Shown: positions 1,129 to 26,045 of the stretch, piece by piece | Position numbering within the stretch: position 1 is the stretch's first letter | Layout of the letters: every line of letters starts with the position of its first letter | Origin: a virus | Virus record (IMG/VR): IMGVR_UViG_3300009507_003477 | Coordinates: 1 to 32,573 of that record | Reading direction: 5' to 3' (one strand) | DNA: 32,573 nucleotides | Notes under the pieces: model-generated | The model's database searches: none | The model's input: only the letters and a program-made list of their open reading frames with translations | What the model was told of the DNA's origin: nothing | Position numbers and translations under genes: made by a program

Positions 1129-1701
1129 ATGGATAATAAACAACTTATAAAAGTAATAAAGGCACTAGTGGAAGTTGAAGTAGCAAAGAAACATGAGACG
1201 TTTCTTAAGAACCAATTTCCAGCAATACTTGATGAAGCCGTTAAAGGTAAAATGAAAACTTTGAAAAAAACTACAACAAAAAAAGTAGTTAGTGAAGAAG
1301 TAGACCCATTTGAAATGGCAAATCAAGTATTACAAAACGAAAGAGAAGAACAACCAAAAAGACAATTCAGTAAAAACGCTGCAATTAATGAAGTTCTTAA
1401 TAATACACAACCATTCTCTAAAGAACAAAGAAGTGGAGGAACACAAGTTAAATCTGTGTTAGATTCATTTCAGAAACCACAAGTGAATGAAAGTATGGAT
1501 AAAACAGTTGAGTTTACTCAACAAGGAGCAGGAGCAGGTTTAGATGGAGTAAGAGCTTCAATGGCAGCACAAATGGGATATGGAGATATGCCAGGTGTTG
1601 GTGGAAAAAAACAAGGCTTGGGTGTAACAACTGGTTTAGCTGGATTAGATAGAATATTAAACAGAGATAACTCTGCGTTAGTTAAAAAATTTAAAAAATA
1701 A
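1129..1701 (+). CDS. Hypothetical protein of the baseplate operon, 190 aa
   Basis: Not recognised. It has a Lys-rich helical N-terminus (residues 1-55), a polar low-complexity middle rich in Gln, Glu and Asn (55-130), a Gly/Ala/Met-rich stretch (~132-165), and a basic end (KKFKK). The composition suggests a largely disordered assembly or scaffold-type protein rather than an enzyme. AAAAGGAAA about 12 bases upstream may serve as a weak ribosome site. It is the first gene after a putative late promoter. Its stop overlaps the next start (TAATG), so it is translationally linked to a small membrane protein and then gp25. A role in tail or baseplate morphogenesis is inferred from position. Confidence 0.6.
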   Translation: MDNKQLIKVIKALVEVEVAKKHETFLKNQFPAILDEAVKGKMKTLKKTTTKKVVSEEVDPFEMANQVLQNEREEQPKRQFSKNAAINEVLNNTQPFSKEQRSGGTQVKSVLDSFQKPQVNESMDKTVEFTQQGAGAGLDGVRASMAAQMGYGDMPGVGGKKQGLGVTTGLAGLDRILNRDNSALVKKFKK

Positions 1702-1820
1702 TGGTACAAGGATTAATCGTATTAATACTATTGGGAACTTCTGTTTTCGTTCTTACTAAAACTTTAAAAAAGAAAAGTTCTGGTGAGTGTGGATGTAGTG
1801 GTTGTCAATGTGGGGAATAA
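1701..1820 (+). CDS. Small Cys-rich single-pass membrane protein (FeoB-associated type), 39 aa
   Basis: This short gene starts inside the upstream stop codon (TAATG) and ends three bases before the gp25 start, so it fits the operon exactly. Residues 3-19 (QGLIVLILLGTSVFVLT) form one hydrophobic helix. A basic patch follows (KTLKKK, 20-25), then a cysteine cluster with C30, C32, C35 and C37. This architecture matches the FeoB-associated Cys-rich membrane proteins common in Bacteroidota: a short N-terminal helix, Lys-rich stop-transfer, and CxCxxCxC tail. What such a protein does in a phage baseplate operon is unknown. Metal binding, membrane anchoring of assembly intermediates, or a lysis-related role are guesses. 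The reading frame and placement are solid; the family call is by pattern only. Confidence 0.65.
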   Translation: MVQGLIVLILLGTSVFVLTKTLKKKSSGECGCSGCQCGE

Positions 1821-2259: not shown

Positions 2260-4302
2260 ATGGCATTAAATACATCAAATAAGAAAAACAAAGGTAGGGA
2301 TATAAAGTATCTCAATAAAGATTTTGGTCAATTTAGAGAAAATCTAATTGAATATGCTAAAACATATTTCCCAACCACATATTCAGATTTTAACGAATCA
2401 TCACCTGGAATGATGTTTATCGAAATGGCATCTTACTTAGGAGATGTTCTTGGATATTACATCGATGATAACTTAAAAGAATCGATGATTCATTCTGCAG
2501 AAGATAGAAGTAATGTTGTTGCTCTTTCAAACTTCTTAGGATACAAACCAAAAGTTACTTCTCCTGCATTAACAACGATTGCAGTTTATCAAATAACACC
2601 AAGTAAAAGAAGAGCAAGTGGTAACTTGTATGATGGTGATAATAGATTTGAAATGGATGAGGGATATCTATTTAGGGTTAAAGAAGGTATGGAATTGACA
2701 TCCGATGCTGGTGTTGTATTTAGAACAACTGAATTACTAGATTTTGCAGATGATTATGAAAGAGAAGTAAATGTATATCAAAGAAACGCGTTAGGTGAAC
2801 CAACCTTTTATTTAATCAAAAAATTTGTAAATGCCATCTCTGCCGAAATTAAAGAAGTAAATGTTCAATTTAGTTCACCAAAACAATTTGATAAAATAGA
2901 TTTAGGTGATACTAATATAATTTCAATTTACGATGTAAGAGATTCAAATGGAAACAAATGGTATGAAGTTCCTTATCTTGCACAAGAAATGATTTATACT
3001 GATTATCCAAATACATCACAATTTGATAAAGATTTGGTTCAATTTAAAGATTCAGTACCAAGTATTCTTAAAGTAACGAAAACATCGAGAAGGTTTGTAA
3101 GACAAGTAAACGCAGATAATACAACTTCAATTGTATTTGGAGCAGGTAATTCAGCATCCTCAGATGAAACATTCTTACCAAACTTTAAGAATGTAGGATT
3201 GGGACTAAATAATTCAATCGATAGATTGGATGCATCATTTGACCCTGCTAACTTTTTAAAATCAAAATCATATGGACAAGCACCTGCTAATACAACATTA
3301 ACAATTAAATATTTAGTTGGAGGTGGTGTACCTGCAAACGTATCCAAAGGTTCTCTTAAGAGAATTACTAAGTTGGAATTTGATGAAGATTTAAGTTTGT
3401 TTGATAATGATGAACTACAAATGTATGGAACTGTTAAAAACTCCATTGCTGCAGAAAATGAAATACCTGCAACAGGTGGTAGAGGTGCAGAAACAATCGA
3501 TGAGATTAGAGAAAACGCACTTGCACACTATGGTTCACAAAACAGAGCAGTAACAAGAAAAGATTACCAAGTTAGAGCTTTGGCATTAGACCCAAAATAT
3601 GGTGGTGTTGCAAAAGCATACTGTGCACCAGATGGAGAGTTAGATAATAACTCACCTAGTTCCATATTGAACACTCCTGATACATTAGAAGAATTTGCTG
3701 GATTAGTACAAAGACTTGGTGGAGATGGAAAAACTGAAACTGAAATTAAAACAGAACTACAAAGATTTTTAGTAGGAAAACAGAGTAACTCTAATAGTGT
3801 AGAAAAAAATAATCCATTCGCTATTAATCTTTATTTACTTGCATATGATTCAAGTAAACACCTAACAGTTCTTAATAAAGCAGTTAAAGAAAATGTAAAA
3901 ACGTATCTTTCAGAATACAGAATGTTAACAGATGGTATAAATCTTTTAGATGGGTTTGTAATTAACATTGGTGTTGATTTTGAAATTATGACATATAACT
4001 CTTATAACAAACGAGAAGTTTTACTACAATGTATTACTGAAGTAGAAAATTATTTTAACATTGATAATTGGACTTTCAACACACCAATTAACATTTCTGA
4101 ATTAGAATTAATAATTGCAGGAGTTGAGGGAGTATTATCAGTACCAAAGTGCCAGATTGTAAATAAATGTGGTGGTGTTTATTCTAAGAATAAATACAAC
4201 ATTGAATCAGCAACAAAGGGTAAAATGGTTTATCCATCATTAGACCCTTCGGTATTTGAATTAAAATATCCTGGTAAGGATATAAAAGGGAGAGTTGTAT
4301 AA
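2260..4302 (+). CDS. gp6: Baseplate wedge protein gp6-like (Baseplate_J family)
   Basis: It has 680 residues (T4 gp6 has 660). The N-terminus contains the typical 'YFPTTYSDFNESSPGMMFIE' stretch (about residues 37-56), followed by 'LGDVLGYYIDDNLKESM', where gp6/gpJ proteins carry the conserved ASY(L/V)xDxLxYYID helix region. A later 'GGRGAETIDEIRENAL...NRAVTRKDYQ' segment (about residues 407-435) is the second well-conserved Baseplate_J signature. gp6 forms the continuous inner ring of the wedge and links neighbouring wedges. It lies directly after gp25, and its TAA overlaps the following gene by one base. I see no frameshift or missing region. Confidence 0.9.
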   Translation: MALNTSNKKNKGRDIKYLNKDFGQFRENLIEYAKTYFPTTYSDFNESSPGMMFIEMASYLGDVLGYYIDDNLKESMIHSAEDRSNVVALSNFLGYKPKVTSPALTTIAVYQITPSKRRASGNLYDGDNRFEMDEGYLFRVKEGMELTSDAGVVFRTTELLDFADDYEREVNVYQRNALGEPTFYLIKKFVNAISAEIKEVNVQFSSPKQFDKIDLGDTNIISIYDVRDSNGNKWYEVPYLAQEMIYTDYPNTSQFDKDLVQFKDSVPSILKVTKTSRRFVRQVNADNTTSIVFGAGNSASSDETFLPNFKNVGLGLNNSIDRLDASFDPANFLKSKSYGQAPANTTLTIKYLVGGGVPANVSKGSLKRITKLEFDEDLSLFDNDELQMYGTVKNSIAAENEIPATGGRGAETIDEIRENALAHYGSQNRAVTRKDYQVRALALDPKYGGVAKAYCAPDGELDNNSPSSILNTPDTLEEFAGLVQRLGGDGKTETEIKTELQRFLVGKQSNSNSVEKNNPFAINLYLLAYDSSKHLTVLNKAVKENVKTYLSEYRMLTDGINLLDGFVINIGVDFEIMTYNSYNKREVLLQCITEVENYFNIDNWTFNTPINISELELIIAGVEGVLSVPKCQIVNKCGGVYSKNKYNIESATKGKMVYPSLDPSVFELKYPGKDIKGRVV

Positions 4303-6657: not shown

Positions 6658-8919
6658 ATGAAGGATTTTAAAAACATAGAAGAAAAAAAAGGCTATCGAG
6701 TTGAGAAAAAAGATAGAGATATTTTTGAACGCGAAGTTCGAAGAGGTCTATTTGGTATTGATGTTGGTGATATCATTGAATTTATACTCTATGATGGAAA
6801 CGATAATCCACTTCCACAAGAGTTTACTAATGGAAAATTAGTAAGATATATTTCTTATACAGATGAAAATATTAAAAAATATTTTAGTAAAGTAAATCAA
6901 ACCAAATATAATATTAAAAGAAATGGTGCTGATGAATTTTTTATTGATTTAGAAAAATTAATTAAAGAAGCTGGATACTCTCAAGGTGTCTTTAAAACAT
7001 CAGTAGCTTTACTTAATAGAAGATTAGGTTCAGAAGAACGTAAGTTTGATAGAGCATGGATACATGAAATTTCTCCATCAAGAACCGAAGTAAGAGTTTT
7101 ACCAGTAATCGATGAATCAACTGGTAAACCAAATTCAGATTTACAAACTCGATATGATACATTCACAAGTGGTGAAGATTTCGCAGCTGATGTAATTACG
7201 TTTTTAGATGAATTTGCTGCACAATTTGATATACCAACCATTTTAAAAAATATGTTAACCTTACGAGGTAAGGTTGCAGATGGTGAGGGATATATAAAAT
7301 TAATTCAAAAAGAATTTAAAATAGATAATTTTGAAAGATGGTTATCTCTTGTAAAAATATCTTTTGATAAAGCATTAGACCATTTCAGAAATAATAGATA
7401 TTCTAATATTTTAGAACAAGAAAAATTTGGTCAACCAACTGGTGAAACTTTTGGTATTAACTTTAATTCAAAAGGAATAATACATCAACTTTGTGATATT
7501 GGAGAACAATGTGTAAATTATCATTTACCAAATCAAGAAATACGAAGTGAAACAATTAGAACACGAGGTCAACAAAAAACTATTGATTCATTAAAAAAGA
7601 TTTTAAAAACAGTAACATCAGATGGGGAGTTTTTAGCAGAAGCCCCAACAGAAAAGAAACCTGCTATTAGAGGATGTAGAGACCCTAAAGCCACAAATTA
7701 CAATGCGGCTGCAACTGTGGATGATATATGTCAATATACTGTGAATGTAACTAAGTATAAGAAAATTGCTATACCTCCACCTCCACCACCTCCAGCTCCA
7801 CCACCGTCACCAAGACCACCGGCACCAAGACCAAGTCCACCAAGACCTAAACCAGCAAGTGGTGGATATTCAATTAGTGCATCACCAATTGAAGGACAAC
7901 CAGCATCTAAAAATGGTAGACTTATACAACAATTTAGAGTACAAGCATCTCCATCGAATATTAAAAAATTTGGTGCAAATGCACACCAAGCAACAATTAC
8001 TGGTGCACCATCTTGGTGTAAGATAACCGTACCAAGTAGAAATTTAAGTTATAGTAGGGGGAGTTGTTTATTAAGAGTAAGAATGTATAAAAACGATGGA
8101 CCTGCACGTAGTGGTACTGTTTCTTTCAGTTCTACATTACCAGGAAATCCAACAACATCTGTAACCATACGACAGGAGGGTGAGGGTGCATCAGCCCCAC
8201 CACCAAGAACACCAGTACCAAGACCAAAACCAACACCACCTGCAAATCCAGCATATGGTTCTGGTAGAACAGAAAAGTGTATTCCAAATTCACCTGAGTT
8301 TGAACTTGCGATTAGATACGCAGATGGAAAGGGTGGATGGAAAACTGAATCGGTGTTAAACGCAACTAAATGTGGGTATAGAGCACCATCACCACCATCA
8401 CCACGCGGAGGCGGCGGAGGAGGAGGCGGAGGATGCTTAGTTGGTAATACCCAAACAGAAATGTCAGATGGTAGTTTTAAATCAATTAAAGATGTTAAAA
8501 TAGGAGATTCATTAATGGGATTAGATATTAAAACACTTTCTGAATGGTTTGAAGTTGAAGATAATTGGAAAGGTTCTAATATTGAACAATATGATTTTGA
8601 TGAATATCAAGTAACTAATACTATGGAAATTACTGATGCTGAAGTTTATTCTATCAATGATGGTTTATTGGAAGCTAGTGAGGACCACAAGCATCTAATA
8701 AGAAGAAATGATTTATGGATGATTCAAACAACATTACAATTACAACCTGATGATGTTTACATGGATAGAGATAAAAATGAAGTTGTGATTCATACAATAT
8801 CATGGGATAGAATAGATACTGTGTATTTGATTACGTTAAATGGTAAACATACATACTTTGCAAATAACATTTTAACCCACAATTACAAAGGAGAAGGTGT
8901 TAGAATGGCTGCAAGGTAG
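6658..8919 (+). CDS. Mosaic virion protein with BACON-like and C-terminal Hint (intein-type) domains, 753 aa
   Basis: Residues 1-330 form a conserved-looking structural module (GDIIEFILYDGND; WIHEISPSRTEVRVLP). Residues 339-360 carry the Bacteroidota/marine-virus motif GCRDPKATNYN...ATVDDICQY. A Pro-rich linker (~372-400) leads to a BACON-like beta domain (~402-511; PSWCKIT, TTSVTIRQEG). A second Pro-rich linker and a short Cys-containing segment follow, then nine glycines. The last 161 residues hold a Hint domain: C593 starts block A (CLVGNTQTEMSDGSF), a block-B-like SEDHKHLI follows, and the domain closes with HTYFANNILTHN, Asn at 742. Only 11 residues remain (YKGEGVRMAAR). The nucleophile Cys and terminal His-Asn are intact, but the +1 residue is Tyr rather than Cys, Ser or Thr. 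Cleavage of the tail therefore seems more likely than classical splicing. No homing-endonuclease insert is visible (150 aa Hint only). Confidence 0.75.
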   Translation: MKDFKNIEEKKGYRVEKKDRDIFEREVRRGLFGIDVGDIIEFILYDGNDNPLPQEFTNGKLVRYISYTDENIKKYFSKVNQTKYNIKRNGADEFFIDLEKLIKEAGYSQGVFKTSVALLNRRLGSEERKFDRAWIHEISPSRTEVRVLPVIDESTGKPNSDLQTRYDTFTSGEDFAADVITFLDEFAAQFDIPTILKNMLTLRGKVADGEGYIKLIQKEFKIDNFERWLSLVKISFDKALDHFRNNRYSNILEQEKFGQPTGETFGINFNSKGIIHQLCDIGEQCVNYHLPNQEIRSETIRTRGQQKTIDSLKKILKTVTSDGEFLAEAPTEKKPAIRGCRDPKATNYNAAATVDDICQYTVNVTKYKKIAIPPPPPPPAPPPSPRPPAPRPSPPRPKPASGGYSISASPIEGQPASKNGRLIQQFRVQASPSNIKKFGANAHQATITGAPSWCKITVPSRNLSYSRGSCLLRVRMYKNDGPARSGTVSFSSTLPGNPTTSVTIRQEGEGASAPPPRTPVPRPKPTPPANPAYGSGRTEKCIPNSPEFELAIRYADGKGGWKTESVLNATKCGYRAPSPPSPRGGGGGGGGGCLVGNTQTEMSDGSFKSIKDVKIGDSLMGLDIKTLSEWFEVEDNWKGSNIEQYDFDEYQVTNTMEITDAEVYSINDGLLEASEDHKHLIRRNDLWMIQTTLQLQPDDVYMDRDKNEVVIHTISWDRIDTVYLITLNGKHTYFANNILTHNYKGEGVRMAAR

Positions 8920-17724: not shown

Positions 17725-18297
17725 TTGAGTTTATTAATAAATCGTTCCAAAAAATGGGGATTTATTCATATACCTAAAACTGGTGGTACATCTATTACAT
17801 CGGTACTACAAAACGTAGTGGGTACTGAATGGGTTTCTAAATCACATAATCATATTGGTAAATTTGAGAACATAAAGGATTACTACATCATGTGTTTTGT
17901 AAGAAATCCTTACACTCGATTTGCATCTGCATATAATCATCAATGTAGAAAAGATGGATTTATGTCAGTACATAGATTCATAGAAACTATCGATAAAAAT
18001 GATTATTTGTTTTTTCCCCAAAGCTATTTTATACGAAATGGGAGTACCAAAGATAAAAAAGTAAGTTTTATTGGTAGGTATGAAAATTTCATAAACGATG
18101 TGAATTTTATTTTAGATAAAGTAGAATCAAATGAAAATATACCACATCTAAATCGTAATCCAATTTATGATAAACATCCAGAATTAAATCAATACAATTT
18201 TTACAAACATCTATATATTGATAAGGATGTTCTAACTTGGGTACGAGAGAGGTACTTAAATGATTTCAAAATTTTTAACTATGATATGGACATATAA
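17725..18297 (+). CDS. Sulfotransferase family protein, 190 aa
   Basis: Predicted to transfer sulfate from PAPS to a glycan or other hydroxyl. FIHIPKTGGTS (residues 13-23) is the 5'-phosphosulfate-binding loop, with the lysine and 'TGGTS' typical of carbohydrate sulfotransferases. FVRNPYTRFASAY (58-70) is the 3'-phosphate-binding motif, with the conserved Arg60 and Ser68. 'VSFIGRYENF' further on is another family-typical stretch. At 190 residues it is compact but contains both cofactor motifs. The start is taken as TTG at 17725 because the P-loop begins at residue 13 and no in-frame ATG precedes it; the first internal Met (residue 56) would remove the P-loop. Its last 38 bases overlap the next gene. 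The acceptor is unknown. Confidence 0.8.
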   Translation: MSLLINRSKKWGFIHIPKTGGTSITSVLQNVVGTEWVSKSHNHIGKFENIKDYYIMCFVRNPYTRFASAYNHQCRKDGFMSVHRFIETIDKNDYLFFPQSYFIRNGSTKDKKVSFIGRYENFINDVNFILDKVESNENIPHLNRNPIYDKHPELNQYNFYKHLYIDKDVLTWVRERYLNDFKIFNYDMDI

Positions 18298-18754
18298 AGG
18301 TCATCCAATAACAGAACTATCAGATATGCCAGAGGGAACTTTTGGTTTTATCTACAAAATAACAAATGGAAAAACTGATGAATACTACATTGGAAAGAAA
18401 CAAGTAGTATCAATTAGAAAACGTAAGTTCGGAAAACGAGAAATAGCAGCATTAGAAGATAAAAGAATGAAAAAATATGAGATGGTTCATAAAGAATCAG
18501 ATTGGAAAGAGTATCGTTCATCTAATAACGTTGTTAAAGGTTGGTTTGAAGAAAACGAAAGATTGTTAAAAGAAGATAATAGGGATGATATCAATGATAG
18601 ATTGGAATTAAGAATTCTTAGATTTTGTTCTAGTAAGAAATCCCTTACATATTATGAACTGCAAGAACAATTCTCACACGATGTCCTAGCAGATGAATTA
18701 TCACTAAATGATAACCTTTTAGGAAAGTTTTTTAGAAAAGATTTGGAAAATTAA
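18260..18754 (+). CDS. GIY-YIG-like nuclease-family protein, up to 164 aa
   Basis: A GIY-YIG core is visible: G29-F-I-Y32-KITN, then EYYIGKK (41-47). It is followed by a basic segment (SIRKRKFGKREIAALEDKR) and 'ESDWKEYRSSNNVV', a pattern common in phage-encoded GIY-YIG proteins related to Seg/Mob-type endonucleases. Near the C-terminus, 'FCSSKKSLTYYELQEQFSHD' resembles the acidic motif region that holds the catalytic Glu. The long form overlaps the sulfotransferase by 38 bases. An ATG at 18281 (MIWTYKGHPITE...) would give a 157-residue protein that starts closer to the conserved core and is perhaps the true start. It could be a free-standing homing endonuclease or a genuine phage nuclease; the neighbours do not decide this. 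Confidence 0.65.
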   Translation: MISKFLTMIWTYKGHPITELSDMPEGTFGFIYKITNGKTDEYYIGKKQVVSIRKRKFGKREIAALEDKRMKKYEMVHKESDWKEYRSSNNVVKGWFEENERLLKEDNRDDINDRLELRILRFCSSKKSLTYYELQEQFSHDVLADELSLNDNLLGKFFRKDLEN

Positions 18755-18773
18755 ATTATTTTTCGTATATTTG
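18742..18773 (+). promoter_or_regulatory. Bacteroidota-type promoter (TTTG-N20-TATATTTG), copy 1
   Basis: TTTG at 18742-18745 and TATATTTG at 18766-18773 are separated by 20 bases and match the Bacteroidota primary-sigma consensus (-33 TTTG/TTG, -7 TAnnTTTG). It overlaps the end of the GIY-YIG gene and lies about 28 bases before the ATG at 18802. The flanks are nearly the same as in the second copy near 19953 (TTTGGAAAATT ... TTCGTATATTTGTA). Confidence 0.75.
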
Positions 18774-22118: not shown

Positions 22119-22890
22119 ATTAGTATCCTATGGATGTTCGTGGACAGAGGGTGAAGGGGCAGATGTTTCTATTGAATCAACATTATCTCCAAATGAAAAA
22201 AGAATATTCAGAAATGAAAATTCCTGGCCTAAATTTCTTTCTGATAAATTGAATATTCCAAAATATCTAAATAGAGGTATTAGCGGAAATTCAAACAGAA
22301 AAATGTTTAATGATATAGTTAAAGATATTGAGAATGGAAATGTAACATCTGATGATTTTGTTTGTGTAATGTTTTCATCTTCACTAAGAGATTATGTACC
22401 TTACTTACCAGATGGTGAGTGGATATCTTGGTCTGTAAAACATTTATTAGAAACGCCTGATAGATTTTATAACTCATATGATGAACATGGGGTTTCCTCA
22501 AAATTTAATAACTTTTTAACAAAATATAAAAAATTCTTCGTTACAGAATTATTTACTCAAGATTATTATAATATAACAAATCAAAACTATATTATTTTTT
22601 TACAAAAATTATTTAGACATTACAACATAAAATATGTTATGATGGAATCTTTTGAAAAAATGGTTCAACCTCCTCTTAAAAATGATTTTACAAATCAAAT
22701 AGATAAATCTACTATCTATGGTGGTTTAAATTTTACTTTTAGAGAATTGTTAAATATGACAAACAGAAAAGATATTTGGGAACATTTAGAAAGGCATGAT
22801 ACTCGTGCCACCCAACATCCAAACAAAGAAGGATATACAATAATTGCAAGTGAACTTTATTCGTTCATTAAAGAAAACAAAATTTTATGA
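22111..22890 (+). CDS. SGNH/GDSL-hydrolase-like protein, 259 aa
   Basis: The N-terminus RLVSYGCSWTEGEG (residues 3-16) matches block I of SGNH hydrolases with nucleophile Ser10. NRGISGNSN nearby supplies the block II Gly and block III Asn. Near the end, DTRATQHPNKEGY provides the block V His (H236), but the usual Asp three residues before it is Ala; the nearest Asp is D230. Such proteins act as esterases, acetyl-transferases or deacetylases on glycans. The start overlaps the previous gene by eight bases and its stop overlaps SbcDC by four, so it is tightly coupled in the replication operon. Activity is likely but uncertain because of the shifted Asp. Confidence 0.7.
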   Translation: MNRLVSYGCSWTEGEGADVSIESTLSPNEKRIFRNENSWPKFLSDKLNIPKYLNRGISGNSNRKMFNDIVKDIENGNVTSDDFVCVMFSSSLRDYVPYLPDGEWISWSVKHLLETPDRFYNSYDEHGVSSKFNNFLTKYKKFFVTELFTQDYYNITNQNYIIFLQKLFRHYNIKYVMMESFEKMVQPPLKNDFTNQIDKSTIYGGLNFTFRELLNMTNRKDIWEHLERHDTRATQHPNKEGYTIIASELYSFIKENKIL

Positions 22891-25800
22891 TTATAAATAA
22901 GATTTATCATCTTGCGGATTTACATATTAGAAATCTGCAAAGACATAAAGAATACAGATTAGTATTTAAGAAATTTTTAAAACAAGTAAAAGAAGATAAA
23001 ATAGAAGATTCTATTATTTATCTTGCGGGTGATATTGCTCATGCTAAAACAGAGATGTCACCAGAACTAGTACAAGAAATAAGTTGGTTCTTAACAGAAT
23101 GTGCTAAGTTGCGTGAAACTGTATTGATTACAGGTAATCACGATTGTAATTTAAATAATTCACATAGATTAGATGTACTTACACCAATTATTGAAAATCT
23201 TAAAAACGATAGGATTCATTATCTTAAAGATACTGGAGTTTATAATCTTCATAATCTTACTCTTGTTCCTTATTCCATTATGGATGATAAGGAAAACTGG
23301 CCGAAGGGAAAAGATGTAGACGGAGAAAATAAAATAGTTTTATTTCATGGACCAGTAAACAAAGCACAGACCGATATCGGTTATACTGTATCATCCAATT
23401 CATTTAAAGTAGATATGTTTGATGGATATGATATGGCTCTCTTAGGAGATATACACAAAAGACAGACATTTGGAGAAGGATATGAGTGGGTTGCCTACGC
23501 AGGTTCGATGATTCAACAGAATCATGGAGAACTACTCGAAAATCATGGTTACTTATTGTGGGATGTTCCCACTCGAACCTTCACCGAACATCATCTACAT
23601 AACGATTATGGATTCTTAACTGTTGATGTAGTAGATGGCGAAATACCACAATGGGTATATGATGAGGTTGGAACTAAACTTCCAAGGTATCCAAGATTAA
23701 GATTAAGGTTCACCAATACTGAACCAAGTGATATGAAACGAAAAATAACTGAACTAAAGAAGTTATTTAAAGTTGCTGAAGTTACTGTAACAAGAACCGA
23801 TACAATAGGACAATTAAAGACAAATCAAAAGGTAAACAAAAACATTGTTGGTGATGTAAAAGATACAACTTTCCAAAATTCTCTAATACGAGATTACTTA
23901 GAAAGACAGTATCTATTAGAAGCAGAAGAATTAGATAAGATACAAGATATCAATTCAGAACTTAATACACAAATAGATACCTCTGAAATTGCTGGCAACA
24001 TTCTTTGGACACCAAAACAATTTAACTTTTCTAATATGTTCTCCTATGGGGAAGATAATCTTATCAGATTCGATAACGCAAGAGGTATCATGGGTATCTT
24101 TGCTCCTAACGCATCAGGTAAATCATCTATGTGGGATGCACTCTCATTCTGTATCTACGATAGAACATCTCGTACAAACGTTTCTAAGAACGTTTTAAAC
24201 AATCGTAAAGATAACTTTTATTGTAAGTTTAACTTTGAGATAGATGGGGTAGATTACTTTATAGAACGAACTGCTAAGTGGACAAGAAAGAAAACCAATC
24301 TCAAGGTAGATGTATCTTTTTGGAAAGAAGATGGTGGTGTAATCGAATCACTTAATGGAGAACAACGAAGAGAAACTAATAAGAACATTGAAAAATACTT
24401 AGGTAAGTTTGAGGATTTCGTTTTAACTGCCCTTTCCCTACAAGGAAACAACGCACTATTCATTGATAAATCACAATCGGAACGTAAGGAGATATTATCT
24501 CAATTCATTGGAGTAGATATATTTGATAAACTATATCAAAAGGCATCTGATGAAAATAGGGATAATGCAACACTTATCAGAAAATTCAAGTCTGATGATT
24601 TTACTCAAAAACTAGCAGACATCGACACTGAATTAAAAACCGACAAGAATGAGTACAAACTTTTAGAGATGTCTCAAAAAGCCTTGAAGGAAGAAGATGA
24701 TATCCTTAATAGACAAATTATTAAGTTAAATGAAAAGATAGTAAAGTTAAATTCTGATAGCGGGGTTTCAATCGAGGAATTAGAAAAAAGATTGAAAAAC
24801 CTCGAAACGAAGGTAGGAGGACTCGAAACAACAAAAGGTTCTTTACAAGATAGGATAACCTTTAGAGAAGAACAACAAATTGTATTAGAAGAGATATTAG
24901 ATAAATTTGATGAAGAAGATTTAGAAGAGGGAATAAATACATTAACTAGCCTTAAAACAAATATTGGTACTATTGAAGGTGAAATTGATAAAATCAATAT
25001 TAAAAAAGATTCTTTATATGAACGAAAAGAACATTTAGATTCTCACAAATATAATGAAAATTGTGATATCTGTATCGAAAATTCACAAACAATATTAGAA
25101 CAAAAGGATAGTGTTAACTCTAAAATAAAAGAAATAGAAAGTAATCTACAAGAGGTTGAGAAAGAAAAATTAGATTTGAGTATTGAGATTGATTCTCTAA
25201 AGGGATATGCGGATGAATGGGATAAATACAAAGATGCTAAAGATAAGGAAGATAAATTAGATAGAGAAATTTATCAACTTATTAACAAGTTATCAACAAC
25301 AGAAACCGAAGAAATTCGTTTAGATACTCAAGTTACACAACAAACGCAACTAATTGATGAGTATTACAAGAATGAAAAACAAATTCAGAAGAATAAAGAG
25401 ATACGAAATCAGATTACTGATGTAAGACAAAAACAATCAGGCGTAAAGGATGAATTAAAGAGAATCAATAGTGATGTTCTTAAATTAAATGGGAAGATAT
25501 CTGCTCTTCAAAATCAAAAAGAAACGATTGAAGATAGAATCCAAGAAGTAAAAGATTTAGAAGAACAATCTAAGTTGTTTGATTTTTACTTAAATGCACT
25601 TGGTAAAGATGGTGTATCATATGAATTGATTGAGAAATCTTTACCAATGATTGAAGGTGAGGTAAACAATATCCTTGCACAAATCGTAGAGTTTGGAATG
25701 CAGTTAGAGATTGATGGTAGAAATATTAATGCATATCTTGTGTATGGAGACCAAAGATGGAGTTTGGAAATGTGTAGTGGAATGGAAAGATTCATTAGTG

Positions 25801-26045
25801 GTTTAGCAATCAGAGTTGCTCTAATAAATGTATGTAACCTTCCAAGACCTAATTTCCTTGTGATAGATGAAGGATTTGGTACATTAGATAGTGAAAACCT
25901 ACAATCCCTCTTTATGTTGTTTACATACCTTAAAACACAGTTTGATTTCGTTATGGTAATATCACACATCGACTCGATGAGAGATGTTGTAGATGGATTA
26001 ATTGAAATTAAAAAGGTAAATGGATTTTCAAATGTTAAGTTCTAA
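22887..26045 (+). CDS. gp47-gp46: Fused SbcD-SbcC (T4 gp47-gp46) recombination nuclease/ATPase, 1052 aa
   Basis: One continuous frame contains both subunits of the Mre11-Rad50 type complex, which processes double-strand ends for recombination-dependent replication and repair. Residues 1-~330 are Mre11/SbcD/gp47: D11-L-H13, GD49, GN84-H85-D86, FH154G and GDIH190. Residues ~380-1052 are Rad50/SbcC/gp46: Walker A APNASGKS (406-413), coiled coils, a zinc hook C726-DI-C729, ABC signature SGMER (964-968), and Walker B FLVIDEGFGTLD with D994/E995. The junction (~330-385) is helical and charged. All catalytic motifs of both halves look intact. T4 and bacteria normally encode the two proteins separately. 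Its start overlaps the SGNH gene by four bases and its end overlaps the minus-strand RHH gene by 11. Confidence 0.9.
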   Translation: MIINKIYHLADLHIRNLQRHKEYRLVFKKFLKQVKEDKIEDSIIYLAGDIAHAKTEMSPELVQEISWFLTECAKLRETVLITGNHDCNLNNSHRLDVLTPIIENLKNDRIHYLKDTGVYNLHNLTLVPYSIMDDKENWPKGKDVDGENKIVLFHGPVNKAQTDIGYTVSSNSFKVDMFDGYDMALLGDIHKRQTFGEGYEWVAYAGSMIQQNHGELLENHGYLLWDVPTRTFTEHHLHNDYGFLTVDVVDGEIPQWVYDEVGTKLPRYPRLRLRFTNTEPSDMKRKITELKKLFKVAEVTVTRTDTIGQLKTNQKVNKNIVGDVKDTTFQNSLIRDYLERQYLLEAEELDKIQDINSELNTQIDTSEIAGNILWTPKQFNFSNMFSYGEDNLIRFDNARGIMGIFAPNASGKSSMWDALSFCIYDRTSRTNVSKNVLNNRKDNFYCKFNFEIDGVDYFIERTAKWTRKKTNLKVDVSFWKEDGGVIESLNGEQRRETNKNIEKYLGKFEDFVLTALSLQGNNALFIDKSQSERKEILSQFIGVDIFDKLYQKASDENRDNATLIRKFKSDDFTQKLADIDTELKTDKNEYKLLEMSQKALKEEDDILNRQIIKLNEKIVKLNSDSGVSIEELEKRLKNLETKVGGLETTKGSLQDRITFREEQQIVLEEILDKFDEEDLEEGINTLTSLKTNIGTIEGEIDKINIKKDSLYERKEHLDSHKYNENCDICIENSQTILEQKDSVNSKIKEIESNLQEVEKEKLDLSIEIDSLKGYADEWDKYKDAKDKEDKLDREIYQLINKLSTTETEEIRLDTQVTQQTQLIDEYYKNEKQIQKNKEIRNQITDVRQKQSGVKDELKRINSDVLKLNGKISALQNQKETIEDRIQEVKDLEEQSKLFDFYLNALGKDGVSYELIEKSLPMIEGEVNNILAQIVEFGMQLEIDGRNINAYLVYGDQRWSLEMCSGMERFISGLAIRVALINVCNLPRPNFLVIDEGFGTLDSENLQSLFMLFTYLKTQFDFVMVISHIDSMRDVVDGLIEIKKVNGFSNVKF

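Follow-up and report, generated by a model that had tools for sequence, protein, structure and literature searches.

The window analysed here is a 32,573-nucleotide stretch of viral DNA that carries, close to its left end and on the plus strand, a compact block of genes in which a very small reading frame lies immediately upstream of a baseplate gene. The block opens with a 190-aa gene (1129–1701), referred to as the "LNRDNSxLVKKFKK" or LNRDNS gene, a counterpart of which stands before gp25 in loci L105–L109. It is followed directly by the gene for a 39-aa microprotein (1701–1820), a gene for a gp25-like baseplate wedge protein (1824–2255; PF04965, 54.6 bits; phrog_261, 69.3 bits) and a gene for a gp6/gpJ-like baseplate wedge protein (2260–4302; phrog_219, 89.4 bits). 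The initial annotation had described the microprotein gene as wedged between a structural gene and gp25; the gp25 assignment is confirmed, and the 190-aa gene is likely structural by its place, its Pfam and PHROG matches lying below cut-off or at chance level. An AlphaFold2 model of the 190-aa protein from its single sequence is helical or disordered and of low confidence (mean pLDDT 59.5), and tblastn found no match for it in cultured phages.

Other genes of the window have features of their own. The 336-aa protein encoded upstream of the block (60–1070) ends in NCCVDCD, and its C-terminus is highly modular among relatives, which have a CCxxC tail, short forms of 186–193 aa or long forms of 465–469 aa. 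A tie between the CCxxC tail and the microprotein was considered and rejected, as the tail occurs without the microprotein in L010, L028 and L035 and the microprotein without the tail in L012 and L064. A baseplate-region protein encoded at 6658–8919 has one BACON-like stretch, scoring 21.1 bits where Pfam requires 25, and also a poly-Gly run. Its C-terminus resembles a Hint/intein segment (GCLVGNTQTEM...ILTHN, then a short tail), for which the Pfam matches to Hint families are weak and below cut-off. A Sulfotransfer_2 ORF (17725–18297) overlaps a SegE-like GIY-YIG endonuclease ORF (18260–18754), and a single 1052-aa ORF (22887–26045) unites a Metallophos part with an AAA_23/SbcC-like part, an arrangement like a fusion of T4 gp47 and gp46.

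Ahead of the gene block, a conserved, late-promoter-like intergenic motif, GATATATTTATATTAAGATA, occupies positions 1090–1109 of the plus strand. Of 125 contexts, 37 were excluded as duplicate, too short or unclear as to where the LNRDNS gene starts. Among the 88 distinct upstream sequences that remained, the 20-mer is present in 17 and its core ATATTTATA in the other 71, so that none is without it, whether the space between the LNRDNS gene and gp25 (hereafter the slot) is filled or empty. The core occurs seven times in the window, against a mean of 2.68 in shuffled sequences, and none of 100 shuffles reached seven. Six of the sites are on the plus strand and intergenic as judged by the listed ORFs (beyond 8 kb, those of at least 80 aa), at 1093, 8975, 14206, 16175, 17496 and 26251, some of them directly upstream of ORFs (those at 1129, 9005, 14240, 16199 and 26282). 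ATATTTATA is probably a late promoter element of this phage group. A second sequence, TTTCGTATATTTGTA, is found in two exact copies ahead of 18802 and 20005, at promoter-like sites 18761 and 19972, and fits the Bacteroidetes −7 element, TAnnTTTG. The phage records nearest by gp6 are a Microcystis phage (39.8%), an uncultured phage (38.8%) and Flavobacterium phages (36.9%). A host among the Bacteroidota appears likely from these sequences.

The microprotein gene runs from the ATG at 1701 to the TAA at 1818–1820, and its translation, MVQGLIVLILLGTSVFVLTKTLKKKSSGECGCSGCQCGE, has the organization of a single-pass membrane protein with a cysteine tail. Hydrophobicity is highest over residues 4–18 (1710–1754), with a 15-residue Kyte–Doolittle mean of 2.74, and AlphaFold2 predicted one helix over residues 2–26 (pLDDT 84 over residues 1–20), followed by a low-confidence cysteine tail without structure. 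The predicted helix is followed by a Lys patch (K20 and K23–25) and by a CxCxxCxC tail at residues 30–37 (1788–1811), formed by Cys30, Cys32, Cys35 and Cys37. The stop codon of the upstream gene (TAA, 1699–1701) shares one base with the microprotein ATG in a TAATG overlap, and the three-base gap to the gp25 ATG at 1824 (1821–1823) is itself a second TAA. Thus, the length, the single predicted membrane helix, the Lys patch, the cysteine pattern and both junctions all agree with the first description of the gene.

Codon-level comparison indicates that this is a real gene and that selection is purifying in each of the four Cys-bearing types of slot occupant. In the type of the window copy (GLI, 39 codons), dN/dS was 0.17 over ten distinct DNA sequences, with 11, 7 and 24 variable sites at the first, second and third codon positions; the 38-aa form in L004–L006 differs in length and was omitted. 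For the other types, dN/dS was 0.31 for MQE (n = 9; 0.23 with an earlier set of 5), 0.23 for MYIP (n = 5) and 0.38 for MKIP/MFIP/MNIP (n = 5), and a value of 0.71 came from a Cys-less pair, too few for judgement. The proposed test of conservation and dN/dS in related phages therefore points to constraint at the protein level, and together with conservation across types it rules out a chance ORF. A frame broken in close relatives, or one lacking the cysteines, would have spoken against the gene; the frame is unbroken throughout the window's own clade (nine loci, L001–L009), close relatives retain the cysteines, and it is in more distant relatives that the slot is empty or its occupant Cys-less.

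The position of the microprotein between the LNRDNS gene and gp25 is fixed, while its presence is facultative and its type exchangeable. In a first set of 80 contigs fetched with gp25, the slot was visible in 78 (the contigs of L020 and L045 begin too late), of which 27 have a microprotein with the Cys tail, one (L021) has a microprotein without cysteines and 50 have none. Further gp25 scans enlarged the collection to 292 loci, of which many come from overlapping parts of one contig and 11 were unparsable; it collapsed to 123 contexts that are distinct by sequence and related by descent. In 81 of these the slot is empty, with no more than 45 bases, and in 42 it is occupied by a microprotein, of which 38 have cysteines and 4 are membrane-only, the microprotein-bearing contigs being uncultured and mostly fragments. 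With microprotein-seeded loci added, the 125 contexts comprise 81 empty, 39 helix-plus-Cys, 4 membrane-only and 1 other. This last one, L205, counted among the 38 Cys-bearing contexts, has a 20-residue Cys-only frame, MINKNKLDGGCGCGCGCGGK, that overlaps both neighbours; as listed before gp25 at 1917, the 20-aa frame GGCGCGCGCGGK is without a membrane helix. Because 81 of the 123 contexts are empty, baseplate assembly can generally dispense with the microprotein, and the membrane-only contexts together with L205 imply that neither the helix nor the Cys module is essential to the slot.

The occupants include GLI, MQE and P-type sequences, and GCxxC is present in all 26 distinct helix-plus-Cys peptides among the 31 slot peptides tabulated. 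Membrane-only occupants are MVEGLIIIVMGLVIIIATIQSFFK in L021, MVEGLIVIVMGVIVVITIIQHYIKGE in L138, L140, L141 and L143, and MVSGLIIVVMGIILIITIIQNLFK in L236. In L186, gp25 at 2001 is preceded by a pair of membrane peptides in tandem, 33 and 27 aa long, each with a single helix and no cysteine. Since the GLI start is common to MVEGLIIIVMGLVIIIATIQSFFK, MVEGLIVIVMGVIVVITIIQHYIKGE and MVSGLIIVVMGIILIITIIQNLFK, gain or loss of the Cys tail seems to have happened inside a single family.

Searches that started from the microprotein itself led back to the same place. With alignment A1, it was at the slot in all 23 confirmed loci (6 checked anew and 17 on contigs already catalogued), and with A3 in 13 of 14, the fourteenth (L126) being an unrelated Cys-rich frame. 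The A1 profile run over whole records matched in 11 of 41, once each and consistent with the slot listing. A filter for a helix and three cysteines on short ORFs of the loci gave 43 distinct peptides, 17 on the plus strand (all slot types) and 26 on the minus strand. By tblastn, whose sensitivity is low for such short queries, the window peptide found nothing in cultured phages or plasmids, and the MYIP and MQE peptides nothing in phages. PHROG (E up to 1) and NCBIfam gave no match, and no solved structure was found for the microprotein.

Turnover at the slot has been frequent. A gp25 plus gp6 tree of 54 rows (53 labelled) requires at least 7 changes of presence and at least 10 of type, and for 125 distinct core/gp25 pairs, of which 40 have a filled and 85 an empty slot, presence changed at least 14 times on the tree of the upstream (core) gene or at least 15 times on that of gp25, these being quick trees on which gain and loss are indistinguishable. 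Sister backbones differ in type (GLI in L012, MIYP in L103), and L048 has an MQE gene, the rest of its clade having GLI genes or empty slots. A preferred partner for the microprotein was sought in the trees and dropped, as core and gp25 gave no clear difference (16 versus 18 changes of type and 14 versus 15 of presence). Farther away, Flavobacterium phage immuto 3-5A, Microcystis phage Mel-JY01, the uncultured phage LR756508 and the MAG contigs L108 and L109 have a helical core gene, a gp25-like gene and a gp6-like gene in the same order as the window. They differ from it in that core and gp25 overlap or lie at most 4 bases apart in all five, which leaves no room for the microprotein.

The last codons of the microprotein gene contain a GGGG (1812–1815) that resembles a Shine–Dalgarno sequence for gp25. 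An SD-like motif is found ahead of gp25 in 41 of the 42 contexts with a microprotein and in 63 of the 81 without one; given this difference and the placement of GGGG, translation of the microprotein and gp25 is probably coupled. By the positive-inside rule, the more positive flank of a membrane helix faces the cytosol; this is the segment following the helix in 30 of 31 tabulated slot peptides, which would place the Cys tail on the cytosolic side. Based on these features, we tentatively favour, at somewhat less than even confidence, the view that the microprotein is an accessory of the baseplate block, made late and seated in the inner membrane, whose cytosolic tail binds metal or a partner. 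The microprotein would be expressed late from the same message as gp25 and in translational coupling with it, and its helix would insert N-out/C-in, so that the Lys patch and the Cys tail come to lie in the cytosol. The tail may then bind a metal ion (Fe2+, Zn2+ or an Fe–S cluster), possibly shared between copies, or alternatively a partner that bears cysteines or metal. Tethered in this way, the microprotein could serve as an optional aid to assembly of the baseplate or hub, or to the timing of assembly at the membrane. As a counterpoint to a baseplate role, the gene may sit where it does simply because the operon is expressed late.

The initial annotation had assigned the microprotein to the FeoB-associated type, a family that accompanies ferrous iron uptake in bacteria. 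Against the Pfam model FeoB_associated (PF12669; cut-off 27 bits), the window copy scores 30.9 bits (28.7 in a six-frame search), and two other GLI sequences pass with 27.1 and 27.2 bits, with three further GLI sequences at 26.3–26.6 bits when scanned singly. The other slot types score 16–22.5 bits overall or not at all: MIYP 22.5 bits, MKIP, MFIP and MYIP 16.7–18.5 bits, MQE from none to 18.5 bits (4 scanned), and MNIP and the Cys-less slot peptides none. For one MQE peptide, a eukaryotic metallothionein model scores equally well (15.9 bits), a sign that the Cys tail drives the weak PF12669 scores. In six-frame searches, 2 of 50 records passed the cut-off and 0 of 28 in a second set, the matches in L004–L006 extending beyond the stop of the 38-aa form; among control genomes, 0 of 14 passed and 13 of 14 gave some match at E up to 10. 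Weak matches in 5 of 28 phage records were the slot peptide in L145 and L146 and three other frames, one of them containing stops.

FeoB-associated proteins, like the window copy, have about 40 aa, an N-terminal membrane helix (predicted for the window copy) and a Cys-rich C-tail. In one published account, the family has the motif Cx3-5Cx2-3Cx6-8C, is encoded downstream of feoB and is predominant in Firmicutes and Bacteroidetes, and the authors treat its translation, its orthology and a role of the bacterial members in Fe2+ uptake as open (PMC8749426). In contrast, the cysteines of the window peptide are spaced by 1, 2 and 1 residues, which does not fit this motif, and its neighbours are the LNRDNS gene and gp25 rather than feoB. 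FeoB_C was found in none of 19 and none of 6 records (24 distinct, the record of L064 being in both), and FeoA in none of 7, including records of 288,673 and 287,455 bases, the records being mostly fragments in both cases; the microprotein is present once in the 288,673-base record and was not found in the 287,455-base one. Bacterial relatives were sought in genome contigs, where 127 pattern matches yielded none confirmed, and the A2 profile gave one match in 200 genomes of one phylum, containing an internal stop. In the phylum reached via the genome of L109, 4 of 192 matched PF12669, one over the cut-off (27.2 bits), all spanning model positions 2–29 only and three of them in frames of 191–327 aa; this set was unsuitable for comparison. 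In the literature consulted on FeoB-associated proteins together with phages, no phage protein of this kind appeared, and feoB was named in bacterial gene lists.

As judged from sequence, the microprotein is therefore built like the FeoB-associated proteins but is not filed in the family: a Cys-tailed membrane protein scoring 30.9 against 27 bits agrees with the assignment, while the published Cys spacing and the other slot types do not, and homology statements are weak for peptides of this length. An ancestry shared with host genes is possible. The suggested tie to ferrous iron uptake is not upheld, given the spacing, the lack of FeoB_C in 24 and of FeoA in 7 records, and the Cys-less slot occupants.

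Under the iron reading, the phage would carry an auxiliary iron gene whose FeoB-associated product enhances or readjusts host FeoB late in infection; we regard this as rather unlikely. Apart from the three scores over the cut-off, the Bacteroidetes-type promoter-like sites at 18761 and 19972 would agree with it in hinting at a Bacteroidota host. Published data show a response to iron or to an iron regulator for bacterial members in Porphyromonas gingivalis (1.8-fold up, P 0.040) and Bizionia (PMC10434189, PMC9478572), and the domain is also part of some FeoAB fusions (PMC8980893). However, the Cys spacing departs from the published motif, no bacterial relative was confirmed, the slot beside gp25 is fixed and some occupants have no cysteine; FeoA and FeoB were not found in the records searched, up to 288 kb, although host FeoB could serve.

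It is also conceivable, but unlikely, that the microprotein acts on the membrane late in infection, in lysis timing or second-phage exclusion, and sits in the baseplate operon for late expression. Very small single-pass proteins with frequent gain, loss and swapping would suit such a role, as would the membrane-only occupants and the tandem membrane peptides of L186. Against it, cysteines are present in 38 of 42 occupied contexts and would have no obvious use in such roles, and Pfam found no lysis family in 18 window proteins, with two large ORFs outside the scan and the record being a fragment. A virion component, packaged in the baseplate and carrying metal or entering the host membrane at injection, seems improbable: the gene is encoded and coupled with baseplate genes, and T4 tail fibres contain iron, as cited in PMC11705849, but the AlphaFold2 helix with its unstructured tail suggests no packing domain and the microprotein is absent from 81 of 123 contexts. 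A translated leader that merely couples translation of the upstream gene to gp25 would account for the TAATG overlap, the G-rich final codons and the SD-like motif in 41 of 42 occupied contexts, but it is highly improbable in view of the protein-level constraint (dN/dS 0.17–0.38), a helix and GCxxC maintained across dissimilar sequences, and an SD-like motif that stands without the microprotein in 63 of 81 empty contexts.

The inner-membrane accessory of the baseplate block would not require FeoB despite its FeoB-associated-like build. A broader proposal, which we consider quite unlikely as a whole, is that the baseplate operon of these uncultured tailed phages has a dedicated, exchangeable slot for membrane microproteins, the usual occupant being a membrane-tethered metal-binding peptide, an arrangement that would connect baseplate assembly or the tail tip with both the inner membrane and the supply of metal. 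A known system in which a membrane component engages a baseplate offers a works-like analogy only. It is built from much larger proteins than the microprotein. In the literature searched, mostly titles and the starts of abstracts with thin coverage of subscription papers, no report of such a strategy was found.

Small phage membrane proteins are easily missed and rarely assigned a defined place. The present case also cautions that a PF12669 score over the cut-off need not imply ferrous iron uptake. Repeated swapping, loss and truncation at one fixed position amount to a natural experiment, in which like baseplate genes occur alongside a microprotein with a Cys tail, one that is membrane-only, or none at all. 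Should the tail bind metal, the slot would bear on how such phages handle the iron or zinc of their hosts.
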